Under the pieces are notes generated by a model. It made no database searches, was not told the origin of the DNA, and was given only the letters and a program-made list of their open reading frames with translations. A DNA stretch of 47,231 nucleotides from assembly GCF_030433855.1 (NCBI RefSeq), contig NZ_JARUXC010000020.1:1-47231 (forward strand), in the 5' to 3' direction. This document shows positions 21,611 through 24,639 of the stretch, piece by piece. The position numbers and the translations under genes are program-made. Each line of letters opens with the position of its first letter. Within the stretch, counting starts at the first letter, position 1. Source of the DNA: Agreia sp. PsM10 (GTDB lineage: Bacteria > Actinomycetota > Actinomycetes > Actinomycetales > Microbacteriaceae).

Positions 21611-22489
21611 TCAGGCCGTGAGCCGTGCCAGGAGTTCGCGGTACCGGGCCGCGGTCTGCTCGACGATGTTCTCGGGCAGGGCGGGCGGAGGGCCGGCGGA
21701 CTCATCCGTCGTGTCCCAGTTTGCCGCCAGCCAGTTGCGAACGATCTGCTTGTCGAAGCTGGCGAGGCGATCGCCCGACGCGTAGGCCTCGGCATCCCAG
21801 TACCGACTGGAATCGCTTGTGAGCACCTCGTCGGCGAGGGTGATCTCGCCGGAGACGCGATCGGCGCCGAACTCGAACTTGGTGTCGGCGAGGATGACGC
21901 CGCGTGCCTCGGCGATGGCGGATGCCCGTGAATAGATCTCGAGCGAGAGGTCGCGCAGGCGCTCGGCCACCTGGGCGCCGACCAGCTCGATCGTTCGCTC
22001 GAACGTGATGTTCTCGTCGTGCTCGCCCAGCTCGGCCTTGAACGCCGGGGTGTAGATGGGCTCGGGCAGTCTGTCGCCGTTCTCGAGTCCGGCCGGCAGC
22101 GCGACGCCGCAGACCGACTGCGACTGCTGATACTCCTTCCAGCCGGAGCCGGAGAGATAGCCGCGCACGACGCACTCGATGGGGAACATGTCGAGGGGCT
22201 TCACCAGCATGGCGCGCCCCGCGACCTCGACCGGCACGTCGGCCTGGTCGCCGACCAGGTGGTTCGCTATTCCCGACAGCTGGTCGAACCACCAGAGGCT
22301 CAGGCTCGTGAGCAGCTCGCCTTTGCTCGGAATCCCCGGTTCGAGCACGTGATCGAAGGCGCTGACCCGATCGCTCGCCACGACGAGCAGCGTGTCGGCA
22401 TCGTCGACGCTCACGGCGTCGGTCGGAATGTAGAGGTCGCGCACCTTGCCGCTGTAGACGTCGGTGAAGCCCTCGATCTCGATGGTCAC
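21611..22489 (-). CDS. purC: SAICAR synthetase PurC
   Basis: A 292-aa cytosolic enzyme joining aspartate to CAIR in purine synthesis. Motifs: YSGKVRDLY, VASDRVSAFD, ECVVRGYLSGSGWKEY and ILADTKFEFG. Length and sequence fit the longer form found in actinobacteria and yeast ADE1. The start is GTG at 22489, overlapping the purD stop by 4 nt (GTGA), which indicates translational coupling. Confidence 0.96.
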   Translation of the reverse strand: MTIEIEGFTDVYSGKVRDLYIPTDAVSVDDADTLLVVASDRVSAFDHVLEPGIPSKGELLTSLSLWWFDQLSGIANHLVGDQADVPVEVAGRAMLVKPLDMFPIECVVRGYLSGSGWKEYQQSQSVCGVALPAGLENGDRLPEPIYTPAFKAELGEHDENITFERTIELVGAQVAERLRDLSLEIYSRASAIAEARGVILADTKFEFGADRVSGEITLADEVLTSDSSRYWDAEAYASGDRLASFDKQIVRNWLAANWDTTDESAGPPPALPENIVEQTAARYRELLARLTA

Positions 22490-23757
22490 GAGGTGGCCAC
22501 CTTCGCAGCGATGTCGGTTCGGTGCTGCGAGCCTTCAAGCCCGATCAGGTCGATGGCCTCGTAGGCGCGACGCCGAGCCTCGGAGAAATCGGATGCGGTG
22601 GACACGACACTCAGCACGCGGCCCCCCGTGGCGACGAGTTCGCCGTCGCGCACGGCGGTCGCCGCGTGGGCGATATGGGTGCCGGGCACGGCCTCAGCCT
22701 CGACGAGGCCCGACAGCACGCGGCCCGTGACGGGCGTGCCCGGATAGTTCTCGCTCGCCACGACCACCGTGACCGCGACGTCGCTCGAGAAGGCGGGGCG
22801 AGGCTGGTCGACGAGCGTGCCGCTCGCCGCGGCGAACAGCAGGTCGCTCAGAGGCGTCTCGAGGCGAGGAAGAACGACCTGCGTCTCGGGATCGCCGAAG
22901 CGCGCGTTGAACTCGATGACGCGGATGCCGTCGTCGGTGAGGATCAGGCCGCAGTAGAGCAGGCCGATGAACGGCTTCTCCTCGGCCGCGAGCTGCCGGA
23001 TCGTGGGAAGGGCGATCGTCTCGATGACCTCGTCGACGAAGGCCTCCTCGCTGCCGAACCGCTCGTCGAGCCAGGGGAGTGGCGAGTACGCGCCCATGCC
23101 CCCGGTGTTCGGACCCGCGTCGCCGTCGGACAGCCGCTTGTAGTCCTGCGCGGGAGACATAGGACGCACGGTGTGCCCGTCGCTGAGGAGGAACAGCGAG
23201 ACCTCCTGCCCGTCGAGGAACTCCTCGATGAGCACCTCTCCGTGACCCAGCCAGTGCCTCGAGTGCTCGATCGCCTCGTCGCGGTTCTCGGTGACGAGAA
23301 CCCCTTTGCCTGCCGCGAGACCGTCGGCCTTGACCACGTACGGCGCACCGAACTCGTCGAGGATGCGCTCGGCGTCGGCGAGAGTGCCGGCGCGCTCGGC
23401 ACGACCGGTCGGAACGCCTGCCTCGGCCATGATGTGCTTCGCGAACGTCTTGCTGCCTTCGAGCGCAGCGGCCTCGCGACCGGGGCCGAAGACGGGGATT
23501 CCCCTGCTTCTCACTGCGTCGGCCACGCCGGCCACCAGGGGAGCCTCGGGCCCGACGACGACCAGATCGATGTCTCCGTCCTGCGCGAACTCCACCACGG
23601 CATCGGGATCGTTCGCGTCGATGCCGACGACCGGGACCACGAGGGCGATGCCCGCGTTTCCCGGCGCCGCGACGACATCGTGCTGCCCGGGCTCCGAAAG
23701 AAGCGCGGTGATGATGGCATGCTCTCGCGCGCCGGATCCGAGGACAAGAATCTTCAC
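22486..23757 (-). CDS. purD: Phosphoribosylamine-glycine ligase PurD
   Basis: A 423-aa ATP-grasp enzyme that makes GAR from phosphoribosylamine, the step after PurF. Visible features: VLGSGAREHAI at the N-terminus, VGPEAPLVAG, the ATP-grasp lid region APYVVKADGLAAGKGV, TGGMGAYSPLPW and FNARFGDPETQ. The start is GTG at 23757. It is first of the purD-purC pair. Its 200-bp upstream region leads directly into the hairpin array at 23961-24220, so a transcript from that side could affect it. Nothing else gene-like was seen in 23758-23960. Confidence 0.95.
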   Translation of the reverse strand: MKILVLGSGAREHAIITALLSEPGQHDVVAAPGNAGIALVVPVVGIDANDPDAVVEFAQDGDIDLVVVGPEAPLVAGVADAVRSRGIPVFGPGREAAALEGSKTFAKHIMAEAGVPTGRAERAGTLADAERILDEFGAPYVVKADGLAAGKGVLVTENRDEAIEHSRHWLGHGEVLIEEFLDGQEVSLFLLSDGHTVRPMSPAQDYKRLSDGDAGPNTGGMGAYSPLPWLDERFGSEEAFVDEVIETIALPTIRQLAAEEKPFIGLLYCGLILTDDGIRVIEFNARFGDPETQVVLPRLETPLSDLLFAAASGTLVDQPRPAFSSDVAVTVVVASENYPGTPVTGRVLSGLVEAEAVPGTHIAHAATAVRDGELVATGGRVLSVVSTASDFSEARRRAYEAIDLIGLEGSQHRTDIAAKVATS

Positions 23758-23960
23758 AGCCCACAGCTTAGCTTTCGGCTGCGTCCGTGCCCCGATCGAC
23801 CGTGATCGTCTCGGGCCGCTCGCGCGCCCCGTCGGTCGTTTCGCGTCGCCCGCAACTCGTCGAAAACTTTTCTCCCGATCGACGTAATAGATGCAGACAG
23901 GTCGACTCTCTTATCTATGAAGGCGGTCGATGACACCGTCGGCGAGACAACTTCACAGAG

Positions 23961-24066
23961 CTTCGTACGGCGGCAGCCCATCCCCCCTCGGCCTGCCGTC
24001 GTACGAGAACACTTCGTACGGCGGCCCGATTTTCCCCCATCTCGCGCCGCCGTACGAAGCCTTTTT
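23961..24066 (+). ncRNA. Candidate small RNA: two C-loop hairpins ending in a T run (6C-like)
   Basis: Hairpins H1 and H2 of the array are followed two bases later by TTTTT (24062-24066), so H2 could end a plus-strand transcript. Two hairpins each with a C run in the loop is the layout of the actinobacterial 6C RNA motif. H2 has only five C, and no convincing promoter was found upstream, so strand and limits are uncertain. H3-H5 may belong to the same or a longer transcript. Confidence 0.35.
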
Positions 24067-24220
24067 CGCACGGAGCACCCTTCATCCCCCCCGACTCGGT
24101 GCTCCGTGCGGAAGCACTTCGTGCGGCGGCCCGACTGTCCCCCCAAGCAGCGCCGCCGCACGAACCATGTTCGTGCGGCAGACCACTCATCCCCCCCCCG
24201 AGGCCGGTCTGCCGCACGAC
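23961..24220. repeat. Array of five long hairpins with poly-C loops, about 52-nt period
   Basis: Stems, paired bases only: H1 23963-23976/23993-24006; H2 24012-24025/24046-24059; H3 24067-24079/24098-24110; H4 24118-24130/24152-24164; H5 24171-24184/24206-24219. H2-H5 are perfect over 13-14 bp; H1 has one G-T. Plus-strand loops carry runs of 6, 5, 7, 6 and 9 C. Unit starts are spaced 51, 52, 53 and 52 nt. All arms share TTCG(T/C)(A/G)CGG, but the variable bases differ among units and are matched on the other arm, so pairing is kept. The spacing is not a multiple of three, and ORFs through it look like by-products. It lies between purD and the sterol-carrier-like gene. Function unknown. Confidence 0.92.
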
Positions 24221-24253
24221 AACCCTGTGCTGCATGACAACCCTGTGCCGACC
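24218..24253. repeat. Two 18-bp direct repeats before the sterol-carrier-like gene
   Basis: gacaaccctgtgc occurs at 24218-24230 and again at 24236-24248, with an 18-nt period. It lies directly after hairpin H5 and about 25 nt before the next start codon. It could be a regulator site or slippage product. Confidence 0.6.
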
Positions 24254-24273
24254 CGGCGTCCTACGCTGGAGTC

Positions 24274-24639
24274 ATGGCAAAGACTCGCATCCGCCCCCTC
24301 GACGGCGAAGCGGCCATCGCCGCCGCCACTGCAGACGGGGTCGCCGCCTCCCGCGACGCGACGGCCACGGCCACGCGCTACCTCCTCCAGTGTCTGGCCG
24401 ACACCGCCCAGGGAAACACGGTCGAGGTTCGGGTGCCGCCATTCGGTGCGGTGCAGTGCATCGAAGGCCCCGGCCACACCCGCGGAACCCCGCCGAACGT
24501 GGTGGAGATGGATGCCGCGACCTGGCTCGAACTGGCGACCGGCCGCCTCACGTGGGCGGCGGGGATCGCCGCCGCGCGCATCCACGCCTCCGGCCAGCGG
24601 GCGGACCTCACCGGCTACGTGCCCGTCGAGCGCCCGTAG
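24274..24639 (+). CDS. Sterol carrier family (SCP-2-like) protein
   Basis: A 121-aa cytosolic protein. The segment GTPPNVVEMDAATWLELATGRLTW followed by ASGQRADL is the signature of the small actinobacterial 'sterol carrier family' proteins; the first part is quoted here in pieces as PPNVVEMDAATWLELATGR. The family is often found close to purine genes. No ligand or reaction is known for it, and lipid binding is inferred from the fold. The ATG has no clear Shine-Dalgarno site (only GGAG at 24268-24271, very close). The hairpin array and the 18-bp repeats lie directly upstream. Confidence 0.8.
   Translation: MAKTRIRPLDGEAAIAAATADGVAASRDATATATRYLLQCLADTAQGNTVEVRVPPFGAVQCIEGPGHTRGTPPNVVEMDAATWLELATGRLTWAAGIAAARIHASGQRADLTGYVPVERP

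Follow-up and report, generated by a model that had tools for sequence, protein, structure and literature searches.

The window analyzed here, a 47,231-nt stretch of the Agreia sp. PsM10 genome (contig NZ_JARUXC010000020.1), carries five tandem hairpins between purD and a gene encoding an SCP_3 domain, each displaying a run of cytosines in its loop on the same strand. The units have covarying stems, occupy a conserved locus in two genera, and lie downstream of a conserved promoter-like box. On sequence grounds, the array is best read as a C-rich-loop small RNA of a new family and not as a member of 6C. With moderate confidence, we propose a stand-alone plus-strand sRNA gene with an ECF-type promoter, whose C loops would pair with G-rich ribosome-binding regions. 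The features are as follows.

22486-23757, minus strand: flanking gene purD (GARS domains), directed away from the array
23883-23912, plus strand: promoter-like box conserved 5′ of arrays, CGTAAT (23883-23888), N17, CTCTCTT (23906-23912)
23913-23961, plus strand: leader of 49 nt from box to H1, with a possible small hairpin at 23926-23943 (predicted fold)
23962-24219, plus strand: the whole array of five tandem hairpins, between purD and the SCP_3-domain gene
23962-24007, plus strand: hairpin H1, C6 loop (fold inspection and match to model R1)
24012-24059, plus strand: hairpin H2, C5 loop (TTTTCCCCCAT), followed by CCTTTTT (stem search and R1 match)
24063-24114, plus strand: hairpin H3, C7 loop (stem search and R1 match; missed by model R2)
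24118-24164, plus strand: hairpin H4, C6 loop (stem search and R1 match)
24171-24219, plus strand: hairpin H5, C9 loop (stem search and R1 match)
24274-24639, plus strand: flanking SCP_3-domain gene, directed away from purD

A strict Watson–Crick stem search of the whole window (stem at least 11 bp, loop at most 40) recovered perfect stems in H2 (14 bp), H3 (13), H4 (13), and H5 (14); H1 forms a stem of 15 positions, provided two G–T pairs are permitted. This agrees with the first-pass annotation, which had described five consecutive stems, four of them perfect, with loop runs of 5–9 C on one strand: The runs are 6, 5, 7, 6, and 9, all on the plus strand. The stem exchanges it listed inside the array (TACGG/CCGTA, CACGG/CCGTG, and TGCGG/CCGCA) are also present. 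The window contains ten stems of at least 12 bp—H2–H5 inside 208 bases and six dispersed elsewhere—versus 0 or 1 in each of ten first-order Markov versions of the window. The dispersed stems indicate that the random model underrepresents long stems relative to real DNA, so the clustering is what stands out. The predicted fold of 23940-24262 reached −165.6 kcal/mol, versus a mean of −105.5 (SD 5.5) for 100 dinucleotide shuffles, none of which was equally low (z = −10.9). The opposite strand also folds strongly (z = −9.5); inverted-repeat arrays fold on both strands, and folding energy therefore cannot tell the strand of the array.

Within its own genome, the array was found at one locus only by nucleotide search. 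Model R2, which missed H3, gave no second locus there at E 1 or better, and a permissive R1 search returned weak matches elsewhere, the best of them at a 6C-like RNA (20.9 bits, E 0.14). A scan for tRNA and tmRNA found none. We rejected a protein-coding reading: Frames of about 100 aa lie on both strands, and by eye none is kept over 14 arrays.

The array recurs at the same site in relatives. A nucleotide search of the genus matched three of eight genomes, the window genome included, with G140 at 91% over the array. We compared the gap upstream of the SCP_3 gene in 30 relatives. Within the window genus (g1), the purD|SCP_3 site holds five units in the window genome (G000), five in G140, two in G150, and one in G153; the array is missing from G077, G151, G152, and G154, where about 55–60 bases separate the two genes and the box is absent together with the array. 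Among the other 22 relatives, like-designed hairpins occur at the site only in G007, of genus g8.

At family scale, model R1, built from 17 units, matched 22 of 398 genomes at E 0.001 or better, under stricter filters that lose weak matches. purD and SCP_3 flank the array in 14 of the 22, all from g1 and g8. The other eight, from six genera, are single hairpins with neither gene in the fetched locus, several of which directly follow a stop codon and, by eye, look like terminators; these were left out of all array and unit counts. Genus g8 carries four units in each of nine genomes and six in G090. The total comes to 55 units in 14 genomes (53 distinct; 1–6 per array), 54 from our own script and one G405 unit found by R1. 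Model R2, applied at E 1e-4 to 396 genomes from 110 genera of the order, matched the window genome alone; this sample cannot have included the other array genomes, so the result is informative for other genera only.

Two other hairpin types were seen during these surveys. Two g56 genomes (loci L051 and L053) carry a similar GGCGGCGGGACG..TCCCCCC..CGTCCCGTCGCC hairpin directly 3′ of a stop codon, probably a C-loop terminator. Another hairpin, GCGCGCCGGCGGGCATCCCCCCGCTGGCGCGC, is shared by three members of the window genus, in each case near the junction of two consecutive reading frames: L140 (G153), L141 (G150), and L142 (G152).

Stem pairing is maintained across units despite sequence change. 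Over 13 stem pairs in the 55 units, pairs were standard in 95.3% of cells versus 79.3% when shuffled, a percentage biased by the gathering of units as hairpins. Double-change cells numbered 104 versus 28 shuffled, further pair types 31 versus 22, and the covariation score was 0.497 versus 0.182 (0.055–0.158 with partners slid). Taken alone, the count of pairs changed on both sides (9) was not significant, being matched in 74 of 500 shuffles. Alignments of orthologous arrays, which span eight nonindependent genome pairs and are fairer than the hairpin-collected unit set, contained 405 unchanged stem pairs and 18 that were doubly compensated; another 38 were saved by a one-sided change, 15 were broken, and 10 were gapped. 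Judged by these comparisons, the structure of the array is selected: Covariation over 55 units from 14 genomes, together with the orthologous arrays, supports the earlier suggestion of selection for the folded form. No homologous array with nonpairing stems was found among units that were themselves gathered as hairpins.

The strand of the C run is constant across all collected units. Between orthologous arrays, C-run columns carried few substitutions in the eight genome pairs (0/31, 0/24 in three pairs, 0/20, 2/24, 1/24, and 1/23), counts that leave out run-length changes. The runs were more conserved than other unpaired columns in the single genome pair so tested (P = 0.003). They did not differ significantly from stems (P = 0.37), nor, in G000/G140, from all other columns (P = 0.24).

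The upstream box is conserved. It is exact at 12 of the 14 arrays, with one mismatch in G153 and two in G150; the first half reads CGTAAT in 13 of 14 boxes (CGTCAT in G150), and the second half CTCTCT in all 14, in a search that itself required CTCTCT. Across 18 genomes, the box with at most one mismatch gave 84 matches, versus 6 for the reversed pattern, and the 24 exact matches were split between arrays (12) and other places (12). The leader from box to first hairpin measures 31–33 nt in all 10 g8 arrays, 45–49 nt in three of the four g1 arrays, and 8 nt in G153; in g8, its predicted small-hairpin folds range from −10.2 to −14.8 kcal/mol, computed with no shuffle control. We infer that the box acts as a promoter, with an RNA start near 23917.

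Nine fetched stretches containing other boxes were examined for downstream frames. Downstream of all four boxes at L115 and all five at L116 lies a frame of 158–186 aa with a signal-peptide-like start by eye, and a large frame follows a single box in each of L117, L122, and L123; no clear gene follows the first box of L117 or the boxes of L119, L120, and L121. Six small box-preceded proteins had no Pfam match. Among three large ones tested, that of L117 contains PD40, Ig-like, and cadherin-like domains, and two had no Pfam domain. L115 (G007 contig 1, about 1721100-1723000) and L116 (G405 contig 1, about 1779600-1783200) are clusters of box-preceded, secreted-looking frames, possibly a sigma-factor regulon of surface proteins.

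At three other places, a single C-loop hairpin lies directly 3′ of a one-mismatch box: twice at L118 (G150 contig 14, near 54766 and 56458) and once at L122 (G000 contig 53, near 165952). They may be additional small RNAs or leaders of like kind. At L105 (G140 contig 1, near 483932), a one-mismatch box is followed by a strong hairpin with a AACCCCCAT loop; this combination may be chance inside a gene.

The box partly resembles the BldN-type promoters of Streptomyces. The BldN site is given as CGTAAC-N16-CGTTGA in the account of PMC2375139; the array box resembles it in the first half (CGTAA, followed by T in place of C) and has a compatible spacing (N17 versus N16), but its second half, CTCTCTT, differs from CGTTGA at the −10 position. 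According to PMC4255298, BldN drives surface proteins, the chaplins, and convincing BldN orthologues were reported in morphologically complex genera only, so the array box would need another ECF factor. Searches for the region-4 sigma domain gave 27 matches in G000 and 34 in G007.

Under the proposed mechanism, an sRNA of about 300 nt would be transcribed from the plus strand by way of an ECF-type sigma promoter at 23883-23912 and would fold as rigid stems, each displaying one C run. The loops would act as interchangeable baits for G tracts in or near the ribosome-binding sites of other mRNAs, and pairing would hinder translation by analogy with 6C/B11. More loops per RNA would then give stronger or more numerous contacts.

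Among known RNAs, the closest in design is 6C/B11, an actinobacterial small RNA described as having two stem-loops, usually with six C in each (PMC4046766). As summarized in PMC10470900, B11 represses a reporter with the eccB4 5′UTR, which holds six G’s; its loops target G tracts close to ribosome-binding sites, and one loop of either kind suffices, whereas losing both abolishes repression. The earlier suggestion of a 6C relative or a new class holds in part: The C-run hairpins indicate kinship of design, but membership of 6C is not borne out, as the Rfam 6C model (RF01066) gave the array 19.3 and 19.2 bits, where its gathering score is 47. The arrays also differ from 6C in hairpin number (one to six, five here, versus two), in C runs of 5–9, and in locus, the window genome having its own 6C-like RNA elsewhere.

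That separate 6C-like RNA, with two C-loop hairpins, lies at L083 (G000 contig 31, about 182538-182615; 32.3 bits), and another lies at L084 (G153 contig 1, 720001-720077; 35.2 bits), both below the Rfam gathering score of 47. In 60 relatives, 24 matched the 6C model at E 0.01 or better and 5 reached the cut-off; the Rfam model may therefore undercall 6C in this group. The H2 loop, TTTTCCCCCAT, is nearly identical to the second-hairpin loop of the window genome’s 6C-like RNA, TTTTCCCCCCAT, a likeness that hints at shared targets.

No Rfam 15 family matched in the window at its gathering threshold. We treated weak subthreshold matches (Scr3202, CC1840, ar7, 6C, and microRNA models) as resemblance only. 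The top Rfam match to H1–H2 was Scr3202 (RF02833), a Streptomyces small RNA that likewise has two hairpins with C-containing loops; it scored 28.5 bits, below its gathering score of 52. The Rhizobiales anti-Shine-Dalgarno sRNAs SmelA075 and SmelA099 have, as presented in PMC3927594, three hairpins and four hairpins, respectively, that repeat a single C-rich loop while the stems vary, a repetition also seen in the 55 units. Their loop is CCUCCUCCC, whereas that of the array is a plain C run and none of the five window loops contains CCUCCUCCC; they belong to a different phylum, with no demonstrated sequence relation to the array. A limited literature search found no published description of such an array.

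We scanned 18 genomes for a candidate target pattern, GGGGGGA-N3-10-ATG, with a reversed control. The window genome gave 19 sites versus 4 reversed, and array-less members of the genus gave 21 versus 2, 7 versus 3, 15 versus 7, and 18 versus 2, an enrichment equal to that of the array-bearing members. Twelve of the 19 window-genome sites gave frames of at least 35 aa, most of them apparently out-of-frame readings. Given enrichment without the array and the mostly out-of-frame readings, we make no claim of these G-tract-before-ATG sites as targets.

Several lines count for the sRNA gene: covariation over the 55 units and orthologous arrays, retention of the array between purD and SCP_3 across 14 genomes from two genera, the near-constant box distance and joint loss of array and box in four genus members, C runs that change little between orthologues, the lack of a kept reading frame, the single C-loop hairpins after one-mismatch boxes at three places, and the precedent of B11 and the rhizobial multihairpin sRNAs working in a like manner. 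Counted against it are a −10 half unlike that published for BldN and the reported taxonomic restriction of BldN orthologues; scans of 23700-24400 that found no sigma-70 promoter and no terminator; a target pattern no rarer without the array; C-run conservation that is significant in one comparison only; and absence of the array from four of eight genus members.

The C loops and A/C-rich linkers could instead bind and withhold a protein—an RNA chaperone, a cold-shock protein, or Rho—a sponge that we consider unlikely. One short motif shown repeatedly on variable stems is what a multivalent protein site would be expected to look like, and the search found no mRNA target; against this, the known C-loop RNAs whose loops were tested work by pairing, going by PMC10470900, and there is no known binding protein here.

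Clearly less probable is an element acting as DNA, in which cruciforms or protein-bound repeats would serve replication, the nucleoid, or a mobile element. Compensation also preserves DNA palindromes, and both strands of the array fold, but the constant strand of the C run and the promoter-like box at near-constant upstream distance are not what such an element predicts, and one locus per searched genome is unlike a mobile repeat. Equally improbable is a cis-acting leader, with the array as the 5′UTR controlling the SCP_3 gene. The array does precede that gene and shares its strand, with the 3′ end of H5 54 bases before its ATG; a −10-like TACGCT (24262-24267, by eye), however, stands just 5′ of the ATG and, again by eye, persists in array-less genus members, making a leader role for the array improbable. 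Least probable of all is that the hairpins serve as terminators or insulate purD from SCP_3: Strong GC-rich stems, the CCTTTTT after H2, and several isolated, terminator-like R1 matches just after stop codons in other genera fit this reading, but the flanking genes diverge and so neither transcribes into the array, the terminator scan found none, and terminators need no C loop.

For the stand-alone sRNA gene, a wider interpretation is conceivable, though we think it doubtful. The array would represent a new actinobacterial family of multivalent C-loop RNAs, controlled by an ECF factor whose regulon also includes secreted surface proteins. The degree to which messages with G-rich ribosome-binding sites are repressed at a surface or developmental switch would depend on hairpin number, and the RNA would act alongside a separate 6C-like RNA with nearly the same loops. 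If this is true, a family absent from Rfam 15 would be added, and the common box would link such an RNA with a secreted-protein program. The relatives, whose arrays have from one to six like loops at a single locus, would then form a natural series in which the relation between loop number and the strength of C-loop control is directly testable.
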